Shown here one piece after another: positions 1,860 to 63,767 of a DNA stretch of 64,000 nucleotides (the stretch's first letter is position 1; the number at the start of each line of letters is the position of its first letter). The position numbers and the translations under genes are program-made. Source of the stretch: Stropharia rugosoannulata (taxonomy: Eukaryota; Basidiomycota; Agaricomycetes; Agaricales; Strophariaceae). Location: positions 2,046,001-2,110,000 of the forward strand of contig JANCIK010000013.1 in NCBI GenBank assembly GCA_028532985.1. Reading direction: 5' to 3'. Under the pieces are notes generated by a model. The model was given only the letters and a program-made list of their open reading frames with translations, searched no databases and had not been told where the DNA came from.

Positions 1860-2087
1860 AACTGGCCGTCATGTCCTTCAATCGCCGGTTGTCGTTCTCC
1901 CCTGTGGCCATTCCATTTGTTGAAAATGGCCCTGTAATTCACAGTCAAATACTAGCTTCCCATTAGTCCCGTGTAGCACAGTAATATACTAGGTTTTGAT
2001 TAGCTCAAAATAACTCCATGATCCACAGTATAATAATAGGTCACTGTACTACTATAGATCACGGTACCCAGCCACTGTCCTATGTGG
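1860..2087. repeat. Terminal inverted repeat of the old KDZ copy
   Basis: Contains CCATTTGTTGAAAATGGCCC, two degenerate 'ATCACGGTA/GATCCACAGTA' blocks and the terminus GTACCCAGCCACTGTCCTATGTGG seen at 47628-47648. The order matches the outer part of the complete element's repeat, with many substitutions and small indels. The other flank is off the window, so no target duplication can be checked. The element stops at 2087 and unrelated sequence begins at 2088. Confidence 0.8.
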
Positions 2088-2700: not shown

Positions 2701-3213
2701 CCAGTATGTCGCTGCCAATATTCTTTGCCTTGTAATCCTTGTAAAACTGCCTATCAATTCACCCGTGTAGATATATTGCTTGTTTTTGGACAATGTTGCT
2801 ACATGCTATTTCTGTGCTTTGTTCTTTGTTTGCTATGTCTTTGCTCTGATTTTTGTGCTGCTTGCTGCTCTGCCCAGACATGTACAGTTGTATACAAATG
2901 TTAATTATCAATAATATTAGCTCTTGATAACTTGATCACAATTACAGTGGGCACTCCCAATGACTTGATAAAATAGAGAACAATGTCAAATCTAGGCAAA
3001 AGATATGACAGTATATTCTCTGGAGAGAATATATGGCAATATATACATTTTACATCCATATCTAAGCATACTTGCAGCTCAAGCGGACTTTAACAAAACT
3101 GGACTCTCAAAGTCACGGATGCTAGCAGTCACATGTGCTTATGTGTACTTGACATGTACCTCCTTCTCTTTCCTCTCTCTGTTTAGTACACCCACACTCA
3201 CTGCTTGTTCATC

Positions 3214-33437: not shown

Positions 33438-34805
33438 AGTAGATGTACACTGACCTGTCTGCTTCCACACACTTGAAACCCATATCAGTGAGAACTGAAT
33501 GCAACTTCGTGTTCCACTGCCTAGCTGATTGCTTGAGACTGTAAAGCGACTTGCACAGCTTGCAGACCTTGTTTGGTGTGCCTTCATGGAATCCCTCAGG
33601 TTGCAGCATGTAGATGTCCTCATCCAAGTCACCATTGGTGAATGCAGACAAAATATCCACAGAGCATAGCTCAAGGTCCTCAGTAGCTGCAATAGCCAGT
33701 ATCATGCACAAGGTTGCTGGACGGAAGGTGGGAGCAAAGACTTCAGTGTAGTGCAGTTGTTGATGAATGTGATCCAGTAGCGATGTCCCTCAGGTGTAGG
33801 CACTGAGAGCGGACCATGCAAGTGAGAATGCACCAATTCAAGCAGTTTCGTTGATTTGCGAGTTGAGCTCGGAAATGTACCAGACATCATCTTGCCAGCT
33901 AAGCATGCTTTGCAAATCGGATCTGGCTGCTCTTTCGATGTTACAAGCATGCCAGTGACCAGGTCCTTGGAAAGCAGCTTGTTGATGTGTGCATGGCTGT
34001 GATGTCCGCAACAACAATGCCAGAGCTCTGCATTGAGGGGTAGAGTGGATGACAACTAAGCAGAGCATGCAGATTCGCAAATGGGATGTGTGAGACCATC
34101 CAGAATGGCAGAGTGCGATGCATTGATAGTTGCAGTGAAGATGGTCTTGCCAGAGCAGTTGAAGTACATCTTCTTTGCATCAATCTCAATCAGGATGCCA
34201 GAGCACTTGGTGAGGTACAGGCATGCAAGCAGGTTGTTGTGCAACTTGGGGACATGCAGAACGTGTTTGATGACTACAGCATCTGCTTTCTTGCCATTGA
34301 TGACTGGATGGAACACCACATTGCTAACACCCTCAGAGTAGACGATAGAATCATCTGCAAGACGAATTGGGACACAGTGAGGTTTGTACTCCACAATCCA
34401 GTCTCGATGAGGCGTCATATGGCTAGTTGCACCTGTATCTGCGAGCCAGTCGAAATCGTTGCCTTGTGTGTCACCCGTAGCAAGTGCAGACGCAAAACCT
34501 GCATACTCCATGATTTGCAACGTCTCCTCTGCTGGGGGCAAAGCAGAGTGTGCCATTGCACCAATAGCTGCCAGAGTCGACCACATGCTAACTGGGTCAT
34601 GCAGAATGTGAGCCAATTGTGATTAGAGCTCGTTCTGAACATGACTGTGGATGTAGTCAGCAGCAGCAGTTGACTTGCTTGTCCATATGTTGTGTGCCTC
34701 GATCTCAGCCATAGACAGCGTGAGAGAGAGCACAGGACACTTGCATTCACCTGTAACCAAATGCCATAGCTCCTGAGAGCGTAACCATGCTTTCATGTTG
34801 CAAGA
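33438..34805 (-). pseudogene. Copia copy I, 3' part (left of the KDZ insertion)
   Basis: Read from 34805: gag (continuing the frame interrupted by the KDZ element), a stop after HVQNEL near 34623, protease WLADTGATSHM, a stop after SACSA, gag-pre-integrase, and integrase to WITFINNCT. A deletion then fuses integrase to reverse transcriptase (FAPTFRPATLCMILAIA) near 33748. RT ends at YIYS, where the LINE A-tail begins. Several stops and this internal deletion make it inactive. The other half lies at 47649-48431. Confidence 0.8.
34801..34805. repeat. Left target-site duplication of the KDZ element
   Basis: CAAGA at 34801-34805 repeats at 47649-47653. The empty site, seen in copia copy M near 62990 (GTTGCAAGACCAGAG), has it once. 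If the terminal CCA of the element is counted as target instead, the duplication is the 8-bp CAAGACCA (34801-34808 and 47649-47656). The sequence cannot separate the two. Confidence 0.85.
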
Positions 34806-35640
34806 CCACATAGGACAGTGGCTGGGTACCATAGTATATGGGACCTCAGTAAACTATTAGTATACCGTAGATCACGGGCCCATTTTCAACAAATGGCAAC
34901 CTAGTATAATACCGTGATCTACGGGGCTAATGGCAACCTATCTTAGTACCGTGTTTCACAGGGCCATTTTCAACAAATGGCATCCGCATAAATAGGTAGG
35001 TAAATCCGGCAGAACCAGAAAGTTAAATAATTAAAAAGCGGTAAAATCGGCAGCGATGTGCGTAAAAAGAGGTAAATTCGGCGGCATTATAATTTTCACA
35101 AAATGAATTCCGGCAGTTGTACTGAAAACACCATTTCTATCCGGCAGATATAGTCACATGATTTTCTCAAATTTCACGGGGCTAGTGGTAAATATTTTAA
35201 TACCATGTGCTATAGACTCATTTTCAACAAATGGACTTGTGAGAGTTTCGATGAGCCGGCTGGAAGAAATCCGGCGGCAAGGTGATGGTGGATGAGAATG
35301 GCCTGTCACTCCTCTCCGACTTATCCAAAGCTGATGGAATGTACCCAAACTGCCCAAAATACTTCCACCCAGCTATCCTTTACGGAGTGGACCAATTGGG
35401 TTACCAGGGGCATGTATTCCTTGCCTGGAACAGGGAATCATTTTAGCAGGTGAAGCTAAGCGGTCTGCCAAACCACCAAATTGGCTTTCTCCGCCGGTAA
35501 ATGTGATATTCCCGGCAAGAACCTAGTGCAATTCAGCGTCACAGGAGCGAAGAGAGTCGGTCACCAGCATCATAAGGGTTTTTGGAAGATTTGGATTTGA
35601 TGCCTACAACAGAGACATAACTCCAAATGTTACCCCATGA
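34806..35640. repeat. Left terminal inverted repeat of the KDZ element
   Basis: Near-identical in inverse to 46815-47648. For example, 35154-35357 and 47097-47300 translate to the same 67 residues on opposite strands. The outer ~180 bp contain repeated blocks CCATTTGTTGAAAATGGGCC / CCGTGATCTACGG, good candidates for transposase-binding sites. The inner part continues as the arm of a large palindrome. Confidence 0.9.
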
Positions 35641-36366
35641 TGGGTGTTTGTTCATTGCAAAACACCCCCAGCGACCAGGTGGAGCTGCCAGCCAAACAGC
35701 GCAAGTAGGCGGGGGCGGGGGCTCAAGGGGACCAAAAGGCGCAAAGCGGCGGGGTCGGGGGCACGAAGAGGACCAAAAAGCCCAAAGGGGCGGGGGCAGG
35801 GGCGCAAAGGGGACCAAAAAGCCCAAAGGGGCGGGGCCGGGGGCCTAAGGGGCGGCGGAGCAGCCGGCGGCCGGCGGCCTTGGGGCCCAAGGGGGGCGGG
35901 GGCCCAAAGGGTGCGTGAAGGAGCCGGCGGCCGCCAGCCATACGTGGGGGCCTCCGCCCCTTTGGGCCTTTTGGCCCCCCTTGGGCCCCATGGCCGCCGG
36001 CTGCCGGCTGCTCCGCCGCCCCTTAGGCCCCCGGCCCCGCCCCGTTGGGCTTTTTGGTCCCCTTTGCGCCCCTGCCCCCGCCCCTTTGGGCTTTTTGGTC
36101 CTCTTCGTGCCCCCGACCCCGCCGCTTTGCGCCTTTTGGTCCCCTTGAGCCCCCGCCCCCGCCTACTTGCGCTGTTTGGCTGGCAGCTCCACCTGGTCGC
36201 TGGGGGTGTTTTGCAATGAACAAACACCCATCATGGGGTAACATTTGGAGTTATGTCTCTGTTGTAGGCATCAAATCCAAATCTTCCAAAAACCCTTATG
36301 ATGCTGGTGACCGACTCTCTTCGCTCCTCTGACGCTGAATTGCGCCAGTTTCTTGCCAGAAATATT
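35505..36366. repeat. ~860-bp near-perfect GC-rich palindrome
   Basis: Symmetric about 35935/35936. The outer ~130 bp of each arm is the inner part of the terminal repeat (GACGCTGAATTGC, ACCGACTCTCTTCGCTCC). The inner ~290 bp is low-complexity G/C with runs such as GGCGGGGGCGGGGGCTCAAGG. Because of the symmetry both strands show almost the same 191-codon open frame, which is a by-product of the palindrome and not a gene. The right end of the element lacks it but has a related GC-rich stretch at 46560-46720. Confidence 0.9.
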
Positions 36367-36892
36367 CTACTGACACACGGAGATAGATGGCCCTGCTGTG
36401 TCAATGGGTGCACATGCGTGCAACACATCCGGCGGTTTTGCCGCCGGATCCATCGCACCTTGACCCTTCCCTGATGTGAAACAATTCTGCAAATGCTTTT
36501 ACTACTTCTGTCCTTTCCTACCTCAGCATCCTTTCCATACACCCTTGCATCATTTACTTAGGTCAAGCAAACCACTTTCAATGTTACCTCAAGATGCAGC
36601 TATTATCAGTAATAATCGAGCTTTGTTAACACCTTATTGGTGGGGCTGATATAATGTAGGCTGGCGCATTATATGACGCCAGGATGTGGCACTGAGATCA
36701 CGTAAGGCCGGTGGAAAGTGAACTTTAAATGTTCGAGCTATGTTGATTGGTGCCGTGGGAATGTTTGCTATTCTTTGTACAATGTTGAACTTTATAATAG
36801 CTCTAGGCAATCACCGGTTGTTTTCTTCTCTCCCACACCTTCATACTCTAAAAAAATCCCTCTCCTCCTCATTTTTCAAGTCTCGTCATCAA

Positions 36893-38874
36893 ATGGCCAC
36901 CACATACAGCAACATGGAGCTCCGAGAGGCAATTCTTGCCTTCCACTTCGATTGCATCAAGGTTTGGGAGGGTGGGGAGCAGGTATACCTGCTCAAGAGG
37001 AAGAGGTTATGGAAGGCATTTGTGAGTATTGATTTCATTTATTATTGGATACTTACATTCTGTGAATAGATTGAACTTCGAGAACGCAAGAAGACTGCTG
37101 CCAGCCCTCGAATCGGGTGGATGCTGTACAGCTATATGCTGAAGCTCGTGTCGTCGGACTCGCCGGCGGATGGAAAGGAGGCGGAAGGTGTGAAGTGGGA
37201 ACAGTGGAGAGGAATGGTCGAGGGAGGGCTGTATGTCCTGAGGCGAGAGGACCAGGCCAAGGTTGAGGTTGAACAGTCAAGCCTCCCTGTCATTAGTAAG
37301 TTCTGTTTCATTCATTAATATGTTATACTAATTGTCGCATAGAAAAACGGCCAGATATTGTGAAGGCCAGGGCACCAGTTCCGGCAGCTCAGCCGGCAGC
37401 GCAACCGACTGCGTTTCCCGCACCAGTCCCCATCCCAACCTGTGCGCCAGTCCCAATCCCTGCCACTGTCCCTACACCTGCGCCCACGCCCACTCTGCCT
37501 GCAGTGCCCGTGCCAATGTCCGCACCGGAGCAACCCTCAGGTGCAGTGCATGTCTCCCCCTCTCCGCAGGCCGTAATCTGCCAGCCAAGAAACAAGAAAC
37601 TGGCGGTGAGGGAGAAGACCCCATCCCCAACTGGCGCACATCCGGCAGCATTCCAAGATGTTGTCCAGTTGCAGAGGAAGGTCGTGGTCGAGGTGCCCAA
37701 GGGCAAGAAGACGCAGGGGAAGAATGCAAAGGGACCTGCAACGCAGCCGGCAGTTGTGGGTCCCTCCAGACTTCCGCCAGTTCAAGCAAGCGAAACCTTG
37801 AGTGATGACAACGAAGACCTGCCCCTGGCTCGCACTGTGAAAGTCAAGGGAAAGGGAAAAGGAAAGGCAAGGGCAATGGAGGTGGATGAACCCAGCCCGC
37901 GGGCGGCAGCGACCCCAGCCAGGAGAAGCAGGAGCAGGAAGACTGAAGACGAGGATAGCAATGTTCCGCCGGCCGCCGGCAAGGGGAAAGCAAAGGGCAA
38001 GGGCTCGCATTCGAAGGGGTTGCCCATCCCTGAGGGTTGTTATGCAAGCCAGACTCCCTGCTGGTCTTGCATCAACCACGGGACGACCTGTCACATCGAG
38101 TCGCCGGAACACGAGGCCGCTATGCTCGAGGACCCCATCAAGCCCTGCACGATATGCCAGCTATACAAGAAGCCTTGCTTGAAGACAGCCGGTGCGATCA
38201 CCCTCGACGACAAGGTCAAGCCGTGGGTAAAGCACCTCACGCGATTCATCACCCCAGATGGGGCACGGGCGTTCCCCACACCAACAACTGTGGGAGATAC
38301 CCTCTTACTGACTCTTGACGCGGCGCAGAAGGCAGTGTCAGGCCTCGAGAATGGCGTCGATGAAATCAGCACCGAAGTTCAGGCAGTGCAGAAGCAGCAC
38401 AAGGCACTATCGAAGAAGTTTGAAGATGGTGTCATCGCGATCGAAAACGTCGAGGACAAGGTCGAGACGGTGGAGAAGAAGGTGGAGATGATGCAGGCGG
38501 CGATAACAGAGCATGGTGAGATGCTCCTCCACATTGTGGAGGGGCAGGCAGCCATTGTGATGCTGTTGAGGGCTTTGGGGCGAAAGGTGGGCGGAACCGA
38601 TCCCGAGTTCTGCCGGGAAGACGATGGCGCATCGAGACAGGACAACTTGCAAAAGTTGTTCCCAATCTCGATGGCAATATTCCAGCGTCAAGATGCTCAT
38701 GCGGCCGCCGGACGTACACCGGCGGATGCAGGCACCATTCCCCCACCACCACCCATTGCTGCCCCGACACCACCCGCCCCCACAACAAAGGCAAGGTCAA
38801 GTTCACCACCGGGACCGCTGCACAACCTGTGTGTCATAACTCGAAGGCAGTCAGGGCCTAGTGCATATATGTAG
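36893..38874 (+). CDS. KDZ accessory gene B: Cys-cluster/coiled-coil protein
   Basis: Exons 36893-37021, 37070-37295 and 37343-38874, all phases matched, 628 residues, no stop. Residues 1-118 form a domain conserved with the second copy at 1-861 (HFDCIKVWEGGEQVYLLKR; VKWEQWRGMVEGGLYVL). Residues ~125-180 are Pro/Ala-rich. A basic stretch VKVKGKGKGKAR lies near residue 285, and a cysteine cluster CWSCINHGTTC...CTICQLYKKPC at ~350-400 resembles the paired CxxC-x6-C arrangement of fungal zinc-cluster proteins. A long heptad coiled coil (ENVEDKVETVEKKVEMMQ) follows at ~450-540, then a Pro-rich end. Inferred role: a DNA-binding, self-associating regulator encoded by the transposon. It overlaps gene D tail-to-tail by 17 bp. 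Confidence 0.8.
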
Positions 38875-39734
38875 TCATAATTATTACATACACTGTGAAT
38901 ATTGCATTTCCGTCAGGTTTGGTGAATGTTGTGATCCAGAAGGAGCATACACCCATGCTATCAAACATCTCCTTGTCAACCTCACAACAAATGTCTGCAC
39001 AATGTTTTACAGCCTGTCTAAAAACATATCAGAATGAAGCTGCTGCTCAGACAATTCACATACTTGGCTTGGACATCCAGCGGAACACCCTTTGCTTTCC
39101 ACTCCGAGACCTCATTTTGATACTCGGCTCGCTCCTCTTCTGTAAGCATTTCCTTGATATATTTCTTCGCCCCTGCATAGTACCTGATCCAGGATCGGCT
39201 GCTATAGCCAGCACCAAGGGAGGCGGTCTTGGCATCATCATCGCCAGATTCCGCCGGATCGTCTGCCGGATCGGGAATGAGATCTTCATCAGGATCGGCA
39301 GCTGCCTCTCGTGCTCGATGCTTTGCTTCTTCCTCAATCTCCTTGCTTTTGTGTGCTATCAGTACTAAATCGAAAGTGACTTCCATATTAAAGCCTTTGA
39401 TTTTCATACGTCTGGAGGTCTTTCCATTGTTCTTAAACCAATTAAATATTGACTGAGAGTATCGACATTGAGTAATGTGCACATAATATAATATTGTACT
39501 TGCCTTTTTCTTCTTCTTCCACTCTTCCTGGACCTTATCATTGAAATCTGGATTGTTTCTCTGGTACCTTGTGCCCCACAGTGCCTTGATCATTTTGATA
39601 ACCTTCTCAGCAACAAATGTTCCCTTTCTCTCCTTCACCTGTGCACGATAACCCTCAACATTGCTTCGTAGAATTTTCAATTCTTGTGCAGTCCAGATGT
39701 ATGTTGATGCAGCAGTTTCTACAGGTAGTGTCAT
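38858..39734 (-). CDS. KDZ accessory gene D, unknown function
   Basis: Exons 39734-39504, 39452-39064 and 39017-38858, 259 residues, no stop. The first intron is GC-AG (GGCAAGTAC donor, 51 bp). It is also in frame and open, so retention would add 17 residues. Residues 1-77 read TYIWTAQELKILRSNVEGYR..KALWGTRY and end in KKKKK, a Myb/SANT-like spacing of aromatic residues by eye only. QSIFNWFKNNGKTSRR follows, a WF.N motif frequent in mushroom transposon-linked proteins. Then an acidic ADPDEDLIPDPADDPAES segment and a Cys-containing C-terminus. It is divergent from the transposase gene (172 bp apart), so the two may share a promoter. Confidence 0.7.
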
Positions 39735-39906
39735 TGGAGGAGGGGTATAAATTGGTTCAATGAATGGATGTCACAATGGTATACGCAGTATATATATACA
39801 TACAGACATGTGTATCGATATCGATTATTATGAAGCAGTACACATGTGGCATTGGTTTCTTAATATAAGGTCGAACACCAAATGCACATGCAACTGTCTA
39901 CTCCCA

Positions 39907-42900
39907 ATGCGCCGTGTCCGTATAACCCAGCACAATGTGCCCAATCAAGCTGGTGGCATCCAGATAGAAGAGCGGGACCATAGAGGAAAGGTCATCACAA
40001 AGAAGCGTAAACGTGGTGGTGAACCTGTCACAGAGAATGTAGCACCGACTATTCCTGCTATTCCTGCTATTCCAGACATTCCACCAGGCTTTGAACCACA
40101 GGAAGTACCTGACCGTCTTGACTATGCTGGAGATATAACTGAGGATCAGGTTATCAAAAATCTACAAAACTTGGATCTACCAGTATACAGAGGCAAGGTA
40201 TGTTGTATCACCCACATAAATTGCATGCTGCATGTATTAAATTGTGCAGTCGCAAAACGATTTTCTTAGAGAATGGCTGGTCAGAAGGGATACCCACTTG
40301 AAGATTGTTATGGCATCCCATGCACCTGCCAGAGGGCTTGATACATGCAATGCCTGCAATGCACCTACTGCCAAATGGAAGTGTAAGGAATGTTTTGGAG
40401 GACGACTCTTATGCACGACATGTTGCCGGCAGATTCATGATTTCATGCCATTTCATCGTATTCTTCGTTGGGATGGTAGTGCTTTCACACCGGCGGCACT
40501 ATGGCAAGTCAGTGTAAAGCTTCATCTTGGCCATCAAGGAAATAGATGTCCTAATACAATGGTCGACTACAATGATATACAAGAAATGCAAGAGGCGCAG
40601 TATGGAGATGAACATGAAGACGATATCCGCCGGGCTTACAATGCTGGTCTGCAACCTGAAGCTGAGGAAGCCGCCGATGAATATATTGATGAAGACACAA
40701 TTGTCTTTGATATTGATGTTACTTACCCTCGAGTCTTACCGAGGCCAGCCCAACATGATACCCATGGTAATCCATTTGTTACAATTGTCGAAGTAAATGG
40801 AATCCATCACCTGCTGGCTGTCAAATGTCACTGCAACAATCAGCCGCCGGAGGATAACCAATACATGCAGCTGGCACTATTCCCAACCTCTTTCGATGTC
40901 ATCAAGACTGTCTTCACATTTGCTGTTCTTCGAGACTTCAGGCTGTCTAACCTGGAGTGCAAGACATCTGCATATCAGTATTACACAAAGCTCTGCCGGT
41001 TGACCTGCCCAGCCTTCCCACAGGCAGTATTGGATTGATACCGTGAGCTCTGCCGGCTGAGTAGACAATTTTGCAACATAAAGATGTGGACCATGCATGG
41101 CCGAGCTCATGGACTATGGCACCCAAACCCTGACCCACCAGCTATCCCGGAAGTGCGGATCCTTGCTGATAATGAAATACCAAATGAGGATATTATGCCT
41201 CCACCAGTTGCAGAACAGTCTGAATCAGACAGTGAAGATGAGGCACCAGAAGATGCCACCGGTAACACCGCCGGAGCGATTAAAATGACACCATCAATGT
41301 ACGGCGATATACTGGCTCTATTTTTCCCTGCTTGTCCTCAACCAGAAATCAACCTCCCTGAAGACTGGAAAGAGAATGACAAGAAGTTTCTTTTTATCCG
41401 CAAGTACTGTGCTGATGGCAATTTCAAGGCTGACCATTTGAATCAAAAGAATGCACATGACAATATTCATTTGACAGCCGGCCAGGCATTCATGACAGCT
41501 GCCGGTCCTTACCAGGAGCATTTGAAGGATGCCAAAAAATATTCCAGGAAATTCAAAGAGCCGCCGACTTGCCATTCTCACCGTGCACAGCTTGACAGTG
41601 AAAAGGTTGTTTCTGGCCGCTGGGTCAGAGGGATTGGTGTACAGGCATGTGCAAGACATGGCTGCTTCTGTCCAGGCAGTCTTGTTGACTTTGAATTGGG
41701 CGAACGTCAAATGTGCATGGACTACAGTATTTCTGAAGCACTCAAGCATACCAATACCAGCAGCATCGAGACTGTCATGTTCATTTATGACATTATGTGT
41801 CAGTTCTACAAGAATATGACTAGGTGATTTCGAAATTGCGGTCCCATGTCCACCGTATGCCTCGAGACCCAACAGTGGCTCAGCATCAGGATCTTGTACG
41901 CCGCCGGCACACACTTTGCAAGCAGCTGGACAAATTTGCTTGCAATGCTGTCGACATCATGGGCATTGACATTGTGAATGCCTTTAATGATGAGCATGAA
42001 GTTGCCATTCTTGATGGTGCACAAACAGATGAAGAGGGGGAGATTGCAAATGAAGCAGTCAGTTATGCTGACCCAGAAAGGCAGCTGATGGCCTTCCCTT
42101 CAGAAATCACTGAAGAGATTTTGACATCCGCCAGTGCATCTGCCCAGGATAAATCTGTTCTCTGCCGGTTGCAAAAAACAGAGCTAAAGATCAGAAAAGC
42201 TCATGCTGATGATTTATTAGAATCAATTTGTGGAGAAATTATTCAGAAATCTTGGCTATATGCATTTGACGTCAGGAGGACAGATGGTGCACATCACACC
42301 AGAGCTCAGGATCGCGTGGTCGTCTTGGCACAGGCAACCAGTACACACCGGCGGAAATATAATCAGAATCGATTATCCATGCTATGCCTTGCAAGACATG
42401 ACAATGATAGGGCTGCCATTGAACAACAATTCCCCATCATGTCAAAAGCTGATACAAATACTAGTGCATCAATAACTGAACCGAATGCAAGAGGGGGTAG
42501 CAGTTCTCAAATGTCTTGGATATGGAGAATAGAACATAATATGGATCTGCTGGATGGTAATCCGCTGGTCGCAGGAAATCTCAATCGCGAAAGAATCAAT
42601 GATTGTAAGTTTTATTGATATTCATCAAGCTGTGACTAAATACAATTGTAGTCTATCGAATTCATTGGCTACGAGCAAGAGCACAGAAAATGCGCTGGGA
42701 GGAAGAGGTTGTGCTATGTCAGCATGAAATGGACTGGACAGTCTGGTTCTATGTGCATATGGCAAATATGTGGAAACACCAGCGGAACGTCTGGGCAGAT
42801 GCAGTGACCGCCATTCAAAACCCATCAAATGACGCTGCCGGCCAATTTAATGCTCACCCACTAGGTTTCCAGGCTTACGCACAGGCACAGATCAACTTAT

Positions 42901-42983
42901 GGAATGAGTTAGGTAGGGTAGCGGATGCTAGATTTAGTAAGGCACATGTACATTATATAAGCCACTGGTATCATGTGGCCTGA
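39907..42983 (+). pseudogene. KDZ transposase gene A with CxC2-like cluster, inactivated
   Basis: Exon 1 39907-40197 (MRRVRITQHNVPNQ, then KKRKRGG); exon 2 40250-42604; exon 3 42652-42983. A CxC2-like cysteine cluster, CNACNAPTAKWKCKECFGG followed by CTTCC..H, lies at ~125-170. The KDZ order then follows: HLGHQGNRCP, KTSAYQYYTKLCRLTCP, a TGA at 41036-41038 where the family has Arg before YREL, FPACPQPEINLPEDW, QACARHGCFCPGS, and IYDIMCQFYKNMTR. At ~41825 the frame changes and the usual core (KFHL..H, GAG..DGE, LDDHMNDSNWKK) is absent. Sequence resumes with RRRHTLCKQLDKFACNAVDI and the normal C-terminal domain (NDFYRIHWLRARAQKMRWEE). The catalytic core therefore appears deleted. The start is chosen for its good N-terminal basic motif and its position after the shared intergenic region. 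Confidence 0.85.
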
Positions 42984-43084
42984 GAAATGAATACATGTGA
43001 CCTTATCGATCTGCGATCAACATCAACAATCCTCCAAAATTTCTTCTTCGACACTCCTAACACCTTGTCATCATCTATCTACTA

Positions 43085-45042
43085 ATGTCCTCCTCCATCT
43101 CCATTGAGAATTCCACGGCCGGGACAACCAAAGACTCTCTCATTGACAAGATTCAATGCAACATCTTTTTGTATATTTGCATGGTATGAATCCGCTGCGC
43201 GCTCTGCTGCCATCCTACCCCCCAGGACATTTCACCAACACACATGTATTCAAGGCTATTCCTGCGAGAAATTGTAGGGAATATTTATGATATCGGTATA
43301 TTATTAACTGAAAAAACCATCTTTTCAGGAATTGACTCTCATGCACATCGGCGCTTGTAATTTGAAGGGATATCAGATGTGCAAACCGTATCTTCTCGAT
43401 CAAATCGCGTCCGCCGGATATGGCATCGCCCGCCGGCCAACCGAATTCCCACTTCCACCAGCCTACGATCCCGAATTCATGCAAGGGGAAGACATTATTC
43501 ACATTGCTGTCACAGATAATCTGCCCACATGGTGGCTGATGGATGACAATGAGCTTTATGACCAGGATGTCACCTGGGACGACCTTCATCATCATTTCTG
43601 CAAATTCTTGGAGGTTATGCACGAAATGTACAAGGATACAAAGAAAATCCCTGACTTGCTAGCCGGTTGCGACTACCCATACGAGTACATTCCTGGGCTC
43701 GCAGAACGTCTGCCGGAATTAGCTCCGCCGGTTACAATGTGCCTCTCATGCCAGGCCTACCAGAAGAAAATTTGGTGGCTGAAGTTCTACCATAACATGA
43801 TGGAAGAAGAATTCGATAGGGAGCCATGTGTTCAGAGAAGCGAGCCAAGAGAAGTTTTGTGGGAAATGAGAGGGGAGCCTGCGGATATTCCGCCGCCGGA
43901 AATGAGCATCCACGACATTCTCCCAGGGTGTCTACTCATAAGGTATGTAAATTCACTGTCAGATCCTTATGTCATCCCATCTCCCTCACTTTAAAGACAC
44001 CAACATATCAAACATTTGCTGTCTCCGAGCAAATCAGATAATCAAACGGGTATGATAAGTCGATCTCCCTCTCCCTTCCACCCAAAATGGAGTCGTTCCG
44101 CCGATCTGTCCGGCAGCATTGCGCGACCCATTCCCAGAGTCACAAAACCAGGGCATGCATCTGAAGCCGAAATGCAGGCAATGTATGCTGCACGCTACCG
44201 TTGTTGGAGCCCATCCCCGGAAGTATCCCTGCCTCTGGTCGACTATTCAGTGCCCTGCAACAGGGATGCACCAATATATATCTCATCAGACAATGAGGCA
44301 CCCGATGACGCACCCGCCGGCAAAGATGACAGCGAAGATGATGCCCCCCTTGATGCACTGGAGGGTACACAGCAGACAGAGGACAGAGACAGCATTACAC
44401 GTGATGGTGCTGATGAAGAAGAGGAAGCCCCCCTCAATGTCACAGTAGGCTCTCGGGATACTGACAATCTGCCAATGGATGAGCAGCCACCCCATACATC
44501 TGCCAGCGAAATGGAAAACGATGTTGATGCCCCCCTTGATGCAACAGAGGGTAAACAGGGAAGCGAGGGACCATTAAATGTTCCCGGGATTGATAATGAA
44601 GATGAAGTGGCCCCCCTCGATGTCCCAGTAGGCTCCCAGGTTACTGACAATCAGCAAATGGATGATGAGCCTCCCCACACATCCGCCGGCCATCAGCAAG
44701 ACGATGATGATGCCCCCCTCGAAGCACCAGCGGGCACACAGGAGAGGGAGGGTCCTGATGAAGATGAAGAGGCCCCCCTCGATGTCCCAATCGGCTCTCA
44801 GCCTACTGAGGATGATCCTATGGATGAGGATGACGCCCCTCTGAATGTTTCCGCCGGATCGGACAATGACAATGATGCACCACTGGGCAAGTCTCTCATT
44901 TATTACCTATATATTACATACTAATAAATAGACACTAGATGTGCACAATGACGAAAATATGGATGACATCAGCTCGGTATGCACTTCTATTCCCAATTCC
45001 TGGAGCCCCAACTCAAGCTCCAGTTCTGACCTTTCTGATTAG
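43085..45042 (+). CDS. KDZ accessory gene C: acidic repeat protein
   Basis: Exons 43085-43183, 43329-43942, 44030-44886 and 44939-45042 join to 557 residues with matched phases. The last intron is GC-AG (CTGGGCAAGT donor). The N-terminal half is globular-like (NLKGYQMCKPYLLDQIASAG, WDDLHHHFCKFLEVMHEM, a CLSCQAYQKKIWW motif). The C-terminal ~250 residues are very acidic, with about three repeats of ~60 residues built on DAPLDxxxGTQ...APLDVPVGSQ.TDN..MDDEPPHTSA. It ends SSSSDLSD. The frame after the TAG stays open for EADADGESDTEM, so the original end may have been 12 codons later. Acidic repeats suggest a histone- or protein-interaction tail; no family recognised. Confidence 0.7.
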
Positions 45043-45253
45043 GAGGCCGATGCAGATGGTGAAAGCGACACTGAGATGTGACACAGACGGCGGGATTAAT
45101 TTTTGCTTGTCATCGAATCCGCCGGCCTCATCTATTTTTCCATTTTTTTTTTCGTTTCTTGTCACCTGCTCAAGGCCTTTAGGCCTTCGTAATATCTCAA
45201 TTGTAATGTGTTTGGCCTGCTGGCCAATTTTAATAATAAAAATTATAATATTT

Positions 45254-46496
45254 CTACTCTATCTGTCTAAACATATTTACATTTGCCCAAGTGCTAACAG
45301 TGTCAGTCAAATCTGATATTGCAGACTTTGAGTGAAAAACTAAACAAGTCCTGTCACCTTCACAGTGAGCACTGTGAACCACTAGCCTACTAGTCAAGGC
45401 AACAAATGTTCCAGCCTTATACTCTAAATCCAATCCCAACCCTGGGAGAGCCATTTCACCCTTTTTGTAAGGACCCAAACTAGTGATGATATCGAACATT
45501 GAATGGCTTCCGCCGGAATCTCAATGCGGCAGCGAGTCTCTATTGTTGATGACCGTAAGCACCCCAAATGGAACACTCCAATGTTCAAGTAGTCCCTCCA
45601 ACTCTGGACCATGCTGCACTTCATCAGGGTGATCACTTAGCCAGCTAAGCATTTTCAGTCCGGCAGCATACTGGCTGGGGTTGACAATACTGAGGAGACC
45701 ACCGATCAGCGCAAAAAAATCCTTTTGCTTCTTTATCCATGCTCAGTCACCGGACATCCTAAGTTTGCGACCAACAATGGGTGGCCCAAAGCACTAGTTT
45801 TTGTCAGACACAGTATTTATTTGTTCCGCCGGACGTACCCCATGCCCCATCTCAAACCATGCAATTGCAAGGCTAACATTGCCCACCTTTCTCCACCCAT
45901 CTCTTTGATGATAATGATCAAGCCCGCTTCTCCAATTTGCTTTACATTTGCTGGTCTTCATCAAGCATGTTAGTTCGTCCACACTTTGCCATAGTTCCTC
46001 CTTTCTCTGCTGGTTAACTCTCTAGGCCGGCGGAGAAATGACACAATCTTACCTGCAGATATGACATTATTGCATTTGGAAGGTACCATACTAATATGTT
46101 GCCCTCCTTGTCGGTCACCAAGCAAGGCTTCCTTAAATGCTGTGTCTCTGTAAATATTGGCGGGTACTTCTTCAGCATTTTATTTTCAACATTTTCATTC
46201 TTCCCTGTTTGTTTACTCGACATGCTCTGTTTGTAGTCATGGACACTCCAAGATGTTGAATCTGATTTATTTTAGTAACACTTATATTGATCATCTATTA
46301 ATGTCTTACATTTGTTCTTGAATGCTGTCACCAGAGAGTCAATAATATGCTCGCATTCCCATGTCAAATGTGCTGTCAATGCTGTTGGTGACTCAGGGGG
46401 GCTGGTCTTGTTGACATGGCACAAGAATGAGGTATGCATATATGCAGCCACAACCTCTGTCATCTCTCTTGGGCTATATGAAAATTTGGGAGTCAT
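45254..46496 (-). pseudogene. TET/JBP-family 2-oxoglutarate/Fe(II) dioxygenase, three stops
   Basis: Exons 46496-46310, 46261-46053 and 46009-45254, 384 codons in one frame. The family oxidises 5-methylcytosine (or thymine) in DNA. Order seen: PCLVTDKEGNILVWYLPNAI; NVSLAIAWFEMGHGVRP; LIGGLLSIVNPSQYAAGLKM; VPFGVLTVINNRDSLPH; then H-stop-D-SGG for the H-x-D iron motif; MFDIITSLGPYKKGEMALPG with LGLDLEYKAGTFVAL; then the distal iron His and 2OG-binding Arg in LVVHSAHCEGDR. Stops are TAG 45794-45796, TGA 45743-45745 (GD-stop-AW) and TGA 45521-45523 inside the H-x-D motif. Both TGAs fit CGA (Arg) with CpG deamination. A GC-rich stretch lies upstream at 46560-46720. Convergent with gene C, 211 bp apart. 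Confidence 0.8.
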
Positions 46497-46814
46497 GGTT
46501 GATTGAAGGAAAGAGGTGTGTTGATCATGTGATTGAAATATTTCTTGATTTTCTCATCAGGTATAGGGGGAGGGTGCGAGGGCGGGGACCCAAAGGCGGC
46601 GGGGCCCAAGCGGCAGAGTACGCTGCCGGCCATTCGGCGAAAGAAAACGCTCAAAAGTCCCGCAAAACGCCCCAAGGGGCCTCAAAGGGGCGCAAGGTGA
46701 CCCAAGGAGGAGCAGGTACGTGTTAGCCACTGTCTCCATACCAACCTCTGGTGCCTCTTCAACGGTCTGCGCTGTAATGCTCTATGAGTATTTTTTCTAA
46801 TAAAGACAGACCAA
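46497..46814. other. GC-rich segment between gene E and the right terminal repeat
   Basis: 46560-46720 is GC-rich with CCCAAAGGCGGCGGGGCCC and CAAAGGGGCGCAAGG motifs like those in the arms of the left palindrome. It is probably the remnant of the same inner terminal sequence and the upstream region of gene E. No coding claim. Confidence 0.5.
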
Positions 46815-47648
46815 TCATGGATAACATTGGGAGTTATGTCTCTGTTGTAGGCATCAACTCCAAATCTCCCGAAAACCCTTATGATGCTGGTGACCGACTC
46901 TCTTCGCTCCTGTGACGCTGAATTGCACTAGGTTCTTGCCGGGAATATCACATTTACCGGCGGAGAAAGCCAATTTGGTGGTTTGGCAGACCGCTTAGCT
47001 TCACCTGCTAAAATGATTCCCTGTTCCAGGCAAGGAATACATGCCCCTGGTAACCCAATTGGTCCACTCCGTAAAGGATAGCTGGGTGGAAGTATTTTGG
47101 GCAGTTTGGGTACATTCCATCAGCTTTGGATAAGTCGGAGAGGAGTGACAGGCCATTCTCATCCACCATCACCTTGCCGCCGGATTTCTTCCAGCCGGCT
47201 CATCGAAACTCTCACAAGTCCATTTGTTGAAAATGAGTCTATAGCACATGGTATTAAAATATTTACCACTAGCCCCGTGAAATTTGAGAAAATCATGTGA
47301 CTATATCTGCCGGATAGAAATGGTGTTTTCAGTACAACTGCCGGAATTCATTTTGTGAAAATTATAATGCCGCCGAATTTACCTCTTTTTACGCACATCG
47401 CTGCCGATTTTACCGCTTTTTAATTATTTAACTTTCTGGTTCTGCCGGATTTACCTACCTATTTATGCGGATGCCATTTGTTGAAAATGGCCCTGTGAAA
47501 CACGGTACTAAGATAGGTTGCCATTAGCCCCGTAGATCACGGTATTATACTAGGTTGCCATTTGTTGAAAATGGGCCCGTGATCTACGGTATACTAATAG
47601 TTTACTGAGGTCCCGTATACTACAGTACCCAGCCACTGTCCTATGTGG
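46815..47648. repeat. Right terminal inverted repeat of the KDZ element
   Basis: Inverse of 34806-35640 with very few differences. Ends GTACCCAGCCACTGTCCTATGTGG at 47648 and is followed by CAAGA. Near-identity of the two repeats contrasts with the diverged repeat at 1860-2087 and implies a fairly recent insertion or gene conversion. Confidence 0.9.
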
Positions 47649-48431
47649 CAAGACCAGAGTTGATAGTTGGCAGTGCTCAGTTTGTCCAACTGAGGTGTTG
47701 CAAAGAAACTCATGGTTGCAGGTGAAGCAAAGTGGTGATAGACATGAAGTGGTATGAGGTGGTAGCTGAGAATGGCACAAACGATGTGGCGAACTTGCGA
47801 GGCGAGCTGGGCTGAAATGCACAAGCAGTGGACAGGACACTTGCAGTATCACAATTAGGCCGAGTTGAGCACTTGCAGTAAAACGTCAATTGCACGAGCA
47901 GCAGTGAACCGATTGACACGAGATTGAACGAAGGTATAGTTCAACGATGCGGAACGTGTGTGATCGAGTTGTGCAAACGACAGTGACAATGTGCGAGTGC
48001 AGTGAGCAAAACTGTTTCAGAGTGTCAATTAGACGGAGTTGAGCACTCTGGTGAAGAACAGTGTATCGCGAGTGAACGGCTGAGCGTAACAACTTGTGAG
48101 TGGGCAAGTGACGAGAGGCACGTGTAACGATGAGGTGCTCGAAAGAACCACGTGTTTCGACGATCAGGGAAGCCCGGGGAGCAAAGTCTCTGGTGAACAC
48201 CAAGAGAGTGCTATTGACCTAAAACCAAAAGAAGCAGATTGCTCGATAACCGTGTAAGCTGGTGGAATGCAGGTGGTACCAGAACGATGGTCGTGACGTG
48301 GCAGTCGTGCTCACGAAAAAACGAGGCAAAATGAACGACGATGAGTGTTAGGTTAAGTACCAAGCCACTCAGTGGAGAAAGGATAGTAGAGAAGTGATGA
48401 GTAGGATGCTTAGAGCACAGGGCTCATAACC
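47649..48431 (-). pseudogene. Copia copy I, 5' part (right of the KDZ insertion)
   Basis: Gag start ATG at 47713 (MSFFATPQLDKLSTANYQLW) reads left into the KDZ element. To the right is the ~715-bp leader, and the half-tRNA primer site abuts the LTR at 48432. The leader shares long identity with that of copy K at 49106-49823. Together with 33438-34805 it forms one interrupted element. Confidence 0.85.
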
Positions 48432-48636
48432 TGTTGAAAGCAGACTGCTTACAGGCGCAGAGAGCAAACCTAATTCACACAGAGATGATGGTGGTAAGAG
48501 ATTAAGAGGAATCTACACTAGTACATGCCTTATATACTACCATAAGCGAGATTAACTATATATGGAAGTGTACTAAATATAGTATGTGATATCTAATCTA
48601 CTGCTGATGGTCAAGTCCAATCCATGTAATCTAACA
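48432..48636 (-). repeat. Copia LTR shared by two minus-strand copies
   Basis: TGTTGAAAGCAGACTGC to GTAATCTAACA (205 bp). The primer-binding site on its left makes it the 5' LTR of copy I. On its right the polypurine tract (CTCCCCCGTG) and the RNase H end make it also the 3' LTR of copy J. A single LTR serving two internal regions indicates LTR-LTR recombination between tandem copies. Confidence 0.85.
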
Positions 48637-48901
48637 CTCCCCCGTGACCAAGGCAGTCTCTATACTACAGTATATACACTATGGTCGAACTCCCATGTGA
48701 GAGTGACAGTAATCTACTTTCGCTGCAGAGAGCAGTTTGGTAAGAATGTCAGCCACCTGTTGTGTTGTGGGTATAAATGAAGGTGTGATGACTCTGTTCT
48801 GTACAGCGTCGTGTAACCAGTGAAAACGAAGGTCGAGGTGTTTCATGCGTCTGTGGTGCTCTGGGTTCTTCAATACACTGATAACAGACTGGTTGTCAAT
48901 G
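48637..48901 (-). pseudogene. Copia copy J, RNase H end fragment
   Basis: Minus-strand polypurine tract followed by the last ~70 codons of pol (ending MGVRP, with KNPEHHRRMKHLDLRFHWLH). It breaks at TTGTCAATG where the plus-strand LTR of copy K begins. Confidence 0.8.
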
Positions 48902-49105
48902 CGTTAGATTATATGGATTTGACTTGACCATCAGCAGTAGATTAGATATTGCGTACTATAATTAGTACGCTCCATATATAGTTAATCTTGCTTATGGTAG
49001 TATATAAAGCATGTACTAGTGTAGATGCCTCTTAATCTCTTACCACCACCATCTCTGTGTGAGTTAGGTTCGCTCTCTGCGCCTGTAAGCAGTCTGCTTT
49101 CAACA
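48902..49105 (+). repeat. Copia 5' LTR of copy K (204 bp)
   Basis: (T)GTTAGATTATATGG to CTGCTTTCAACA. The first base appears changed (CGTTAG). Its partner is 60112-60315. Head-to-head with copy J. Confidence 0.85.
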
Positions 49106-60766: not shown

Positions 60767-63049
60767 GCCAGGAGGTCGAGATTCACGTGTAGTGCGTCTC
60801 AGAGGCTCAGCAACGACTTTGGGTTCCACAGGAATGGGAGGTGCAACAGTACAAGGCAGTTTGGGCATGTTTGGGGCAGAATGCTGATCTCATCGAGTTG
60901 AGCATGTTGGTGTTTTTGTTGATTACGGAATGCGATGCAATGACTCCAACTTGACTGTGGTACTGTCAGACTTGTCTTTCGACGCCCTATCTGATGGTAC
61001 TTGACTCAACTTGCTGGGACCAGTAGGTGGACCGGAATGCACATGCAATTTCCCAGAATGCAAATTGGGCAGAGTTGAGCACTTTGGTAAACTCGATGAT
61101 TTCACACCAGTGGTCGGTTTATGAAAGTTGGGAGTAGGTGCATCGTGTTCGTCATCAGATGACGAGTCAGATGGTGCTAGTCCTGCTGAAGGAGGTGCAG
61201 TTGGTGTGTCTGAGTCATCAGTATCCAAGTCAGGCAAATAGGCAGCAGTTGAATCCCCTGCAGAATCTGGTACATCTGAGAAGTGTGAAGGCATGCCCTT
61301 TGGAAACAAGTTGATTGGTGAAGTGACCTTCAAACCAGGAAAACTGCGTTCGTCAAAGATAGCACGTTCCGAGATCACATACTTCTTAGTGGACGGATTG
61401 TAGAACTGCCAGCCTTTGTAGCCTGTAGGATAACCGACGAAAATGCACTTCTCAATGTGTGGTTGCAGTGACTTGCATTTGTCTCTCTGCACAAAGACGT
61501 ACGCAGCACAACCAAAAACACGGAGATGGCTCATATCAGGTTTCTTGCCATGCCATGCAGTGTAGGGCACAGAATCAGTCAGAGACAACGTAGGTAGCCT
61601 GTTCCACACGTGAATGTAAGCAAACACTGCAAGTCGCCAAAACGAGAGTGGGAGCTTTGCCTCTACAAGCATTGCAGTGACGTGCTCAGCAATAGTGCGA
61701 TTGGCGCGTTCAGCAACACCATTCTGCTGAGGCCAATTGCGTGTGCTGTGGCACCTGTGAATGCTGCATTGCTCCAAAAACTGTATGAACTTGTTTGACA
61801 TGTATTCACCAGCCTTGTCATCCTGCATGGCCTTGATTTTCGCGTTCAGCTGGTTCTCTGCATATGCCTTGTACACCTTGAATGCATCAAATGCATCTGA
61901 CTTGCGCTTCAGGAACATGACAGCATGCAGGTGAGTGCAGTCGTCAATGAATGTGATCCAGTAGCAATGTCCCTCAGGTGTAGGCACTGAGAGTGGACCA
62001 TGCAAGTGAGAATGCACCAATTCAAGCAGTTTCGTCGATTTGCGAGTTGAGCTCGGAAATGTACCAGATGTCATCTTGCCAGCTAAGCATGGTTCGCAAA
62101 TCAGATCTGGCTGCTCTTTCGACGTTACGAGCATGCCAGTGACCAGATCCTTGGAGAGCAGCTTGTTGATGTGTGCATGGCTATGATGTCCGCAACGACG
62201 ATGCCAGAGCTCTGCATTGAGGGGTAGAGTGGATGACGATGAAGCAGAGCATGCAGATTTGCAAATGGGATGAGTGAGACCATCTAGAATGGCAGAGTGC
62301 AATGCATTGATAGTTGCAGTGAAGATGGTCTTGCCAGAGCAGTTGAAGTACATCTTCTTTGCATCGATCTCAATCAGGATGCCAGAGCGCTTGGTGAGGT
62401 ACAGACATGCAAGCAGATTGTTGCGCAACTTGGGGACGTGCAGAACACGTTTGATGACTACAGCGTCCGCTTTCTTGCCATTGATGACTGGATGGAACAC
62501 CACATTGCTAACACCCTCAGAGTAGACGATAGAATCATCTGCAAGACGAATTGGGACACAGTGAGGTTTGTACTCCACAATCCAGTCTTGATGAGTCGTC
62601 ATATGGCTAGTTGCACCTGTATCTGCGAGCCAGTCGAAATCATTGCCTTGTGCGTCACCCGTAGCAAGTGCGGACGCAAAACCTGCATACTCGACAATTT
62701 GTGACATCTCCTCTGCTGGGGGCAAAGCAGACTGTGCCATTGAACCAACAGCTGCCAGAGTTGACCACATGCTAACTGGGTCATGCAGAATGTGAGCCAA
62801 GTGTGATTTGAGCTCATTCTGAACATGACTGTGGATGTAGCCAGCAGCAGCAGTTGACTTGCTTGTCCATGTGTTGTGTGCCTCGATCTCAGCCATAGAC
62901 GGCATAAGAGAGAGCACAGGACGCTTGCATTCACCTGTAACCAGACGCCATAGCTCCTGAGAGCGTAACCATGCTTTCATGTTGCAAGACCAGAGTTGAT
63001 AGTTGGCAGTGCTCAGTTTGTCAAACTGAGGTGTTGCAAAGAAACTCAT
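60767..63049 (-). pseudogene. Copia copy M: intact gag-protease-integrase, truncated linker
   Basis: From ATG 63049 (MSFFATPQFDKLSTANYQLW) a 708-codon open frame holds gag, protease WLADTGATSHM, gag-pre-integrase (HRRCGHHSHAHI, CEPCLAGKM) and complete integrase (LVHSHLHG with His in place of the first catalytic Asp seen as LVHSDLHG in copies G and K; FIDDCTHLHAV; GVAERANRTIAEH), then the IN/RT linker. A TAA at about 60920 (CAA in copy K) ends it. ~150 bp more of linker run to 60767, where it meets copy L. Reverse transcriptase and RNase H are absent. Confidence 0.85.
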
Positions 63050-63767
63050 GGTTGCAGGTGAAGCGAAGTGGTGAACGACGTGAAGTGGTATGAGGTGGTA
63101 GCTGAGAATGGCGCAAACGATGTGGCAAAGTTGCGAGACAAGCTGGGCTGAAATGCACGAGCAGTGGGCTAAGCACTTGCAGTATCACAATTAGGCCGAG
63201 TTGAGCACTTGCAGTAAAACGTCAATTCCACGAGCAGCAGTGAACTGATTGACACGAGATTGAATGAAGGTATAGTTCAACGATGCGGAACGTGTGTGAT
63301 CGAGTTGTGCGAACGACAGTGACAATGTGCTAGTGCAGTGAGCAATACTGTTTCAGAGTGTCAATTGGACAGAGTTGAGCACTCTGGTGAAGAACAGTGA
63401 ATTGCGAGTGAACGGCTGATTGTGACGACCTGTGAGTGGGCAAGTGACGAGGGACATGTGTAACGATGAGGTGCTCGAAAGAACCACGTGTTTTGACAAT
63501 CAGGGAAGCCCGGGGAGCAAAGTCTCTGGTGAACACCAAGAGAGTGCTATTGACCTAAATCCAAAAGAGGCAGATTGCTCGATAACCGTGCAAGCTGGTG
63601 TAACGCAGGTGGTACCAGAACGATGGTCGTGACGTGGCAGTCGTGCTCACGAGAAAACGAGGCAAAACAAACGACAATGAGTGTTAGGTTAAGTACCAAG
63701 CCACTCAGTGGAGAAAGGACAGTAGAGAAGTGATGAGTAGGATGCTTAGAGCACAGGGCTCATAACC
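63050..63767 (-). promoter_or_regulatory. Leader of copy M with primer-binding site
   Basis: 718 bp between LTR and gag ATG. The half-tRNA site CAGGGCTCATAACC is at 63754-63767, next to the LTR. The leader has no ATG-initiated long frame. Open stretches shared with the other leaders start at TTG or GTG and are not credible genes. Confidence 0.7.

Follow-up and report, generated by a model that had tools for sequence, protein, structure and literature searches.

Fungal transposons are known to carry genes for TET/JBP dioxygenases, and the locus described here raises the question of how such an enzyme might be directed to the element that encodes it. The locus lies in a 64,000-nucleotide stretch of the Stropharia rugosoannulata genome (contig JANCIK010000013.1, positions 2,046,001 to 2,110,000 of the forward strand; this whole stretch is called the window), in which positions 34807-47647 are occupied by a decayed member of the TET+ Kyakuja (KDZ) family of DNA transposons that carries, beside its transposase and TET/JBP genes, three partner genes named B, C and D. 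The original prediction, made from the DNA alone, had held that this element brings its own counter-silencing kit. Across the genome, we found that members of the family contain many dispersed copies of a short motif, CCGGCGG, that the bases flanking the motif differ between two subfamilies, and that the transposase gene has recently been exchanged between these subfamilies. By analogy with a plant system discussed below, the motif may serve as an address for anti-silencing, by which B would bind along the element, mark it as self and favour TET, a reading to which we give slightly less than an even chance. A dispersed, subfamily-specific motif together with a partner gene makes a concrete and testable hypothesis of targeting.

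CCGGCGG Is Dispersed along the Elements

The genome (48 Mb, 20 contigs) was searched with pieces of B, C, D, the transposase and TET, and the matching copies were sorted into clades 1-4 by the identity of their matches, not by a tree. Clade 1 comprises the window copy, C11, C1, C10, C7, one truncated copy and one fragment; clade 2, to which C3 belongs, comprises nine copies (one without a transposase match) and two decayed ones. Word counts gave CCGGCGG as the dominant over-represented core, with 68 sites in C11, 67 in C1, 56 in C3 and 33 in the window copy, where 200 order-1 Markov simulations gave means of 1.65 (maximum 6) for C11, 1.05 (5) for C3 and 0.77 (4) for the window copy.

34807-47647, both strands: 33 dispersed CCGGCGG sites (0.77 expected)

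The remaining window holds 6 sites, 4 of them in a clade-3 element at 1-2086, leaving 2 in about 49 kb. Among 35 composition-matched 7-mer classes in C11, CCGGCGG ranked first with its 68 sites; the next two classes (34 and 32) both overlap it, and the median of the two-CpG classes was 3. Genome-wide, 131 motif pairs lay within 30 bp of each other, against 32 for the reversed control, counts that are not independent since the copies are related. Among the 100 pairs listed of these 131, 85 fell within the 0.5% of the genome made up of intervals assigned to this family, and 44 had a start-to-start spacing of exactly 12 bp.

Such an array might have arisen from mutation bias, codon use or the amplification of CG-rich repeats, with B, C and D as passenger or structural genes and without any targeting role. 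In keeping with this, neither C nor D had a significant Pfam match, and several sites lie in a single GC-rich tandem zone close to the left end. However, 58 of the 68 sites in C11 lie to the right of that zone, approximate coding DNA and non-coding DNA have similar numbers of sites per kb (4.7 and 3.6), and 15 sites occur in L077, a 3.06-kb derivative of 39% GC in which no genes were recognised. Together with the positional data given below, these results make an origin without a targeting role quite improbable.

The Transposase Gene Has Been Exchanged between Subfamilies with Different Motif Flanks

When C11 (clade 1) was aligned with C3 (clade 2) in 300-column windows, the transposase gene was 90-98% identical and the remainder of the element 36-83%, mostly 50-70%. 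The edges of the similar segment are sharp, about 75 bp 5′ of the start codon and about 29 bp 3′ of the stop codon (39834 and 43012 in the window), and clade-1 and clade-2 transposases are 95% identical overall. The synonymous divergence (dS) between the clades was 0.23 for the transposase, 2.4 for TET and 1.9 for B, and C and D were saturated, which rules out slow evolution of the transposase in place of a module swap. The transposase segment is far younger than the remainder of the element and was recently exchanged.

39908-42983, + strand: KDZ transposase gene with CxC2 and KDZ domains (start codon by eye)
39834-43012, + strand: transposase segment recently exchanged between subfamilies (approximate, mapped from C11)

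Two routes of this exchange are indistinguishable: the transfer of one gene-sized piece in a single event, and homologous gene conversion confined to the best-conserved gene. The outermost terminus bases are also common to the clade-1 and clade-2 copies compared, and since both these ends and the young transposase are shared, transposase and ends act as a common part across subfamilies, with the other genes and the sub-terminal sequence as the property of each subfamily. The exchange thereby separates the transposition parts from the identity parts, a natural experiment on which protein reads the motif.

The identity parts include the motif flanks. Among sites beyond the transposase segment, 40 of 47 in C11 had T or G just before the core and 43 of 47 had A or C just after it, whereas in C3 29 of 38 had A just before it and 34 of 38 had T or C just after it. 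Thus A at position -1 occurred at 5/47 sites in clade 1 and 29/38 in clade 2 (Fisher p 4e-10), and T at position +7 at 2/47 and 23/38 (Fisher p 1.5e-8). The flanks of a clade-3 locus, L027, were like those of clade 2 (p 1.0 and 0.19), and those of L077 resembled clade 1. Sites inside the exchanged segment showed a third, mixed flank type in both clades (p 4e-4 and 2e-4 in comparison with sites of the same clade beyond it), which would fit an origin of the segment in a further subfamily; part of the mixture may be due to coding constraint. Inside the segment 17 of 21 sites were in register between C11 and C3, and outside it, where the alignment is unreliable at 50-60% identity, 5 of 47 C11 sites were in register, 8 more lay within 10 bp of a counterpart and 34 had none. 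With so few sites in register, repeated and independent gain of the motif would be the simplest reading, and it speaks further against an array produced by mutation bias or repeat amplification.

We considered whether the motif might instead be a binding site of the transposase or transposition machinery, used in packing or synapsis of a long element. The gene-less derivative L077 keeps the motif, so that the motif may be needed for movement (one derivative was read), and the fixed 12-bp spacing of paired sites suggests ordered protein binding. On the other hand, the sites span the whole element, not just its ends, and clade 4 has a related transposase but one CCGGCGG in 8 kb of one element. 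Clades 1 and 2 have almost the same transposase but different flanks, which makes this protein an unlikely reader of the flanks; the reader is to be sought among B, C, D and TET, all of which have diverged. A role of the motif in transposition itself thus appears unlikely to us. C-like, D and TET genes are present in clade 4 despite the near absence of the motif there.

A host-mediated role was also weighed, in which the motif would act as a CpG-rich array organising nucleosomes or methylation, in the manner of linker-type CpG clusters, or would attract a host CGG-binding protein. Each motif contains two CpGs. With sites less than 60 bp apart merged, and with a range of 140-250 bp that was picked after the C11 result was known, 29 of 52 gaps in C11 fell within the range (14.0 expected), as did 12 of 15 in the transposase segment (4.6 expected; coefficient of variation 0.23), an even spacing near 200 bp. 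Even spacing was weak elsewhere: outside the segment, 12 of 30 gaps in C3 (7.7 expected, p 0.053) and 13 of 36 in C1 (9.1 expected, p 0.09) were within the range, only L048 was significant among six further single loci, and four of these six, pooled although partly homologous, gave 24 of 56 gaps (16.4 expected, p 0.017). A general, near-nucleosomal periodicity of about 200 bp is no more than hinted at. Moreover, flank differences between subfamilies within one nucleus are hard to attribute to one host factor, and we give action through the host a small chance.

Partner Genes Travel with the Element and B Is the Candidate Reader

The searches returned at least 40 matches for B, 49 for C, 78 for D, 73 for the transposase and 39 for TET. 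At 20 of the 25 places where B was found, a match to C lay within 22 kb with D between them, and in 19 of these the transposase lay between as well. The homologues of B and C are thus multi-copy, and the copies that were read are bounded by the same termini, as the original prediction had expected of partner genes that move with the element rather than single host genes outside its repeats. The gene order of the family is fixed as B(+), D(-), transposase(+), C(+), TET(-); it is kept in clades 1 and 2 except in the truncated copy and the fragment. In clade 3 the order is kept, and matches to the 88-amino-acid TET query are weak, stop-containing or absent, raising the possibility that TET has been lost naturally from copies in which B and the motif persist. 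Examples of clade 3 with TET matches that are short with stops or missing are G000:C1:2197826 and C1:2412012; B and C are open in several copies of this clade. Clade 4 has D, a transposase, TET and a match that is distantly C-like (22-28% identity), and at the place checked (C2:1031-1042 kb) the gene order is that of the other clades; the B query gave no match to clade 4 in the genome search, and no open reading frame with the six-cysteine pattern adjoined D in 4 kb of the clade-4 locus L079.

Selection on the proteins was estimated as the ratio of nonsynonymous to synonymous divergence (dN/dS) for two pairs of copies. Between C11 and C1 the ratio was 0.20 for B, 0.09 for D, 0.09 for the transposase, 0.04 for TET and 0.41 for C, of which the C1 copy has stops. 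Between C11 and C3 it was 0.24 for B, 0.11 for the transposase and 0.08 for TET, and D and C were saturated at synonymous sites. All eight computable comparisons therefore gave values below 1.

B carries the pattern CxxC-x6-C-x18-CxxC-x6/7-C in 20 of the 23 loci examined; the other three (L025, L029 and L031) gave no open match. The clade-1 variant of this six-cysteine cluster differs from the variant of clades 2 and 3, in step with the flank types, and B and the motif co-occur in clades 1-3. A single-sequence structure model of B, weak overall with a mean predicted local distance difference test score (pLDDT) of 55.7, places a helix at residues 85-188 (block pLDDT 58-76 over residues 101-190).

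For C, 29 columns were invariant when 16 of its 49 matches were aligned. Its profile had one match in the PDB at E 2.1, taken as chance, and its single-sequence fold was unusable (pLDDT 32). D has AT-hook-like stretches of the RGRP type, identified by eye, in C11, C3 and one clade-4 copy. The TET domain of C3 matches CcTET of Coprinopsis cinerea (2e-18 over 213 residues), and the TET proteins of C11 and C3 keep the HxD motif and, by residue count, the position equal to Asp337 of CcTET; position 331 is Gly in C11 and Ser in C3. The residue roles are those given for CcTET in the passages covered of PMC12730594.

The Window Copy Is Bounded as Predicted but Decayed

The ends of the window copy bear out the predicted repeats, duplication and empty site. 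The repeats at 34806-35635 and 46819-47648 are 99% complementary, and BLAST gave a length of 834-835 bp at 99%. The preferred boundary is 34807-47647, with ends CACATAGG...CCTATGTG and a 7-bp target-site duplication (TSD), GCAAGAC. An alternative boundary, CCACAT with a 5-bp duplication, was rejected in favour of CACAT with 7 bp because five other copies agree with the latter, one with a single mismatch.

34800-34806: left TSD, GCAAGAC
34807-35640, + strand: left terminal inverted repeat, clade-1 type, with CATTTTCAACAAATGG three times (34881, 34965, 35219)
46814-47647, - strand: right terminal inverted repeat, with three CATTTTCAACAAATGG 16-mers (47220, 47474, 47558)
47648-47654: right TSD, GCAAGAC

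The CA..TG termini, CACATAGG..CCTATGTG, occur in all six copies examined, and the 7-bp TSD is exact in five of them (window, C11, C1, C10, L077), with six of seven bases agreeing in C3. The same termini bound the window copy, C11, C1 and C3, all read end to end, and C10, of which about 10 kb was unread. The C10 copy (G000:C10:915470-943939) spans 28.5 kb between one matching 7-bp TSD, and a large nested insert therefore probably sits inside it. Each arm of the window copy and of C11 holds three copies of the 16-mer CATTTTCAACAAATGG, and each arm of L077 holds two. C3, in which none was found with up to one mismatch allowed, matches both window ends over about 174 bp. The host site is a copia copy: the joined flanks align with copia DNA at 50175-49589 (95%) and 62697-63284 (93%), and the short duplication is the sole part that these sister copies lack.

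The genes of the window copy, other than the transposase listed above, are as follows.

36893-38816, + strand: gene B, with a six-cysteine cluster, then a predicted coiled coil; 3′ end gone at 38816|38817
36893-37021, 37070-37295 and 37345-38816, + strand: approximate exons of gene B (ends by eye)
39021-39770, - strand: gene D, N-terminal part only, with the remainder within the deletion
43086-45044, + strand: gene C, a conserved core of about 228 amino acids, then acidic repeats; open in the window copy
43086-43186, 43329-43942, 43996-~44886 and ~44939-45044, + strand: approximate exons of gene C (ends by eye)
45257-46553, - strand: TET/JBP dioxygenase gene of several exons, broken in the window copy

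The assignment to KDZ elements is upheld by Pfam, in which the transposase matches CxC2 (PF18803, 3.9e-21) and KDZ (PF18758, 2.4e-17), and so is the dioxygenase, since Tet_JBP matches the minus-strand gene at 45257-45742 (3.7e-12, with the stop read as X). The element had further been called complete, with three intact accessory genes, and neither description survived the comparison. Relative to C11, C1 and C10, about 1.8 kb is gone at 38816|38817, taking the end of B and most of D, and about 0.6 kb at 41833|41834; the transposase is broken by this second deletion and by a stop at 41036-41038, and the TET stop at 45521-45523 falls between the two metal-binding residues of the HxD motif. C is the only one of the three accessory genes with an uninterrupted reading, as judged by eye from the open frames.

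Transitions in two segments of four copies point the same way. The window copy had 84 transitions at 621 CpG positions against 18 at 3,093 other C/G positions (p 1e-49), and C11 had 15 at 622 against 17 at 3,092; at CpG positions, C1 had 22 of 616 and C10 47 of 622. From this CpG decay, taken as the trace of past methylation, we infer that the window copy is a silenced-looking relic. The observed/expected CpG ratio (CpG o/e) was 0.76-0.78 in C3 and C11 and 0.63-0.78 across KDZ copies, and only 0.31 at 2001-34805 of the window.

Two further features of the window belong to this family.

35485-36386, strand not assigned: GC-rich near-palindrome inside the left end, with 413-bp arms (96%) and units of about 41 bp
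1-2086, strand not assigned: end of a second element, clade 3, with the same terminus at 2075-2086 (minus strand)

The near-palindrome at 35485-36386 contains near-identical open frames of 192 amino acids in both directions. In the clade-3 element at 1-2086, which has 4 CCGGCGG sites, the B gene runs across the window start. Elsewhere in the genome, with 40 scored among 99 candidates, at least 10 places have paired 209-bp arms that correspond to the outermost 209 bp of the repeat of clade 1. Of these 10 derivatives, 7 are 3.1-4.5 kb long and non-autonomous in appearance, and L077, the one that was read, carries the motif array. At 48537-49000 of the window, a stretch of about 464 bp with inverted arms of about 100 bp (90-97%) resembles a small inverted-repeat element.

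A Possible Address for an Anti-Silencing System

In the mechanism that we propose, B, likely a coiled-coil dimer with a zinc cluster, would read the CGG-containing motif along the whole element; bound B would mark the element as self and would bring or favour TET, with D and C assisting as chromatin helpers; and the oxidation of 5-methylcytosine, aimed in this way at family members, would relieve silencing. A stricter version is self-addressed demethylation, in which B would guide the on-board TET to the motif-filled elements of its own family only, B and motif would change together between subfamilies, and the transposase gene, exchanged between these subfamilies, would be a shared part. We regard this version as possible but on balance doubtful. 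If it is true, plant VANC has a convergent fungal counterpart in which the element encodes the eraser enzyme itself. Of the predicted counter-silencing kit, the idea itself gains support from a dispersed motif tied to B, and the picture of a working set of genes in the window copy is lost with the decay of that copy and of its accessory genes, not all of which are intact.

A series of observations weighs against the motif as an address read by B. The motif is unevenly distributed: B loci of clades 1-3 range from 0 to 24 sites per about 4 kb, and at 10 of the 29 C loci the number is three or less. In favour of such an address, most motif-poor loci contain many versions that are one CpG transition away from the motif (5 intact and 17 decayed in L026, 3 and 12 in L057, 3 and 13 in L058, against 9 one-step versions in the other 49 kb of the window), and arrays therefore were once present in most of these loci and then eroded. 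This does not hold for L031, L044, L062 and L068, where both intact and one-step decayed sites are few; CpG o/e is strongly depleted in the first three (0.19-0.27) and 0.82 in L068. The scarcity of the motif in clade 4, where L078 has 0 intact and 4 decayed sites and L079 has 1 and 2, rests on 8 kb of one element. In none of four copies had the CpGs of the motif survived better than CpGs elsewhere. CpG decay is strong in the window copy although it bears the motif, the window DNA to the right of the element has a CpG o/e of 0.71, and the high ratio of the KDZ copies may reflect youth alone.

The same holds for several properties of B. Its cysteine region was modelled poorly (block pLDDT 32-56) and its cysteine loop is long, at 18 residues; three B proteins left the Pfam zinc-cluster model (Zn_clus) unmatched at E up to 10, and the B profile retrieved no zinc-cluster chain from the PDB, the best matches having E 0.1 or worse and being mostly helical or coiled-coil stretches. 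Only two flank classes exist, so that the co-divergence of B and motif amounts to few independent events. Finally, word-based searches of a protein database gave no match at E 0.001 to clade-2 B (residues 60-440; the best 7,985 candidates scored) or C (residues 1-240; 871 candidates), where the clade-2 transposase had 228 matches, the top-scoring one in Flammula alnicola at 52% identity. B and C are therefore either lineage-specific or too diverged for a word-based search, and we do not claim their absence elsewhere. A plasmid search with a piece of the transposase gave no match, which was the expected outcome.

Comparison with Known Systems

The founding paper on TET+ Kyakuja of Agaricomycetes is Iyer 2014.

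For the articles cited in this section, the statements refer to the passages covered. The predicted link between TET genes and KDZ elements in mushrooms is already in print: the TET+ Kyakuja of Agaricomycetes (Kojima 2025, PMC12730594) share with the present family a KDZ transposase, an AG-type TET, a 7-bp TSD and CA..TG ends. Two Laccaria families are said there to be without inverted repeats, whereas clade 1 has repeats of about 835 bp. The covered passages make no mention of partner genes B, C and D or of a dispersed motif for Kyakuja, and none of the four appeared in passages of PMC5735166, PMC10398659, PMC5559640, PMC8889193 or PMC8290104; in the literature surveyed, which included few subscription papers and had Iyer 2014 outside its scope, no description of CCGGCGG or of these genes was found. 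TET-bearing Kyakuja with such ends and TSDs and the general idea of anti-silencing are thus already published; the motif array is new here, as are the partner genes within the literature surveyed.

The TET of C3 is similar to CcTET (PDB 7vpn, 8jkk), with HxD and the Asp337 equivalent kept; here the gene lies inside a defined transposon, and the window copy is broken. According to a speculation in Kojima 2025 (PMC12730594), AG-type enzymes lack target specificity. Fungal Zn2Cys6 proteins (PMC5559640), of which the Gal4 type typically reads CGG triplets as homodimers, are like B in their paired CxxC-x6-C halves, and the putative target motif of B likewise contains CGG; a coiled coil comes after the halves in these proteins and is predicted for B. 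B differs from them in the 18-residue loop between the halves and in having no Pfam match.

Closest in function is VANDAL/VANC of Arabidopsis (PMC5735166, PMC10398659). Pfam scans of the element proteins gave no VANC homology. In both systems, a short element-specific motif is present in many copies and differs between related families, and a diverging protein encoded by the element is the proposed reader. The VANDAL motif lies in tandem repeats of non-coding DNA, whereas CCGGCGG is dispersed, coding sequence included; the present elements differ further in that they encode a dioxygenase on board and have a reader whose binding is predicted.

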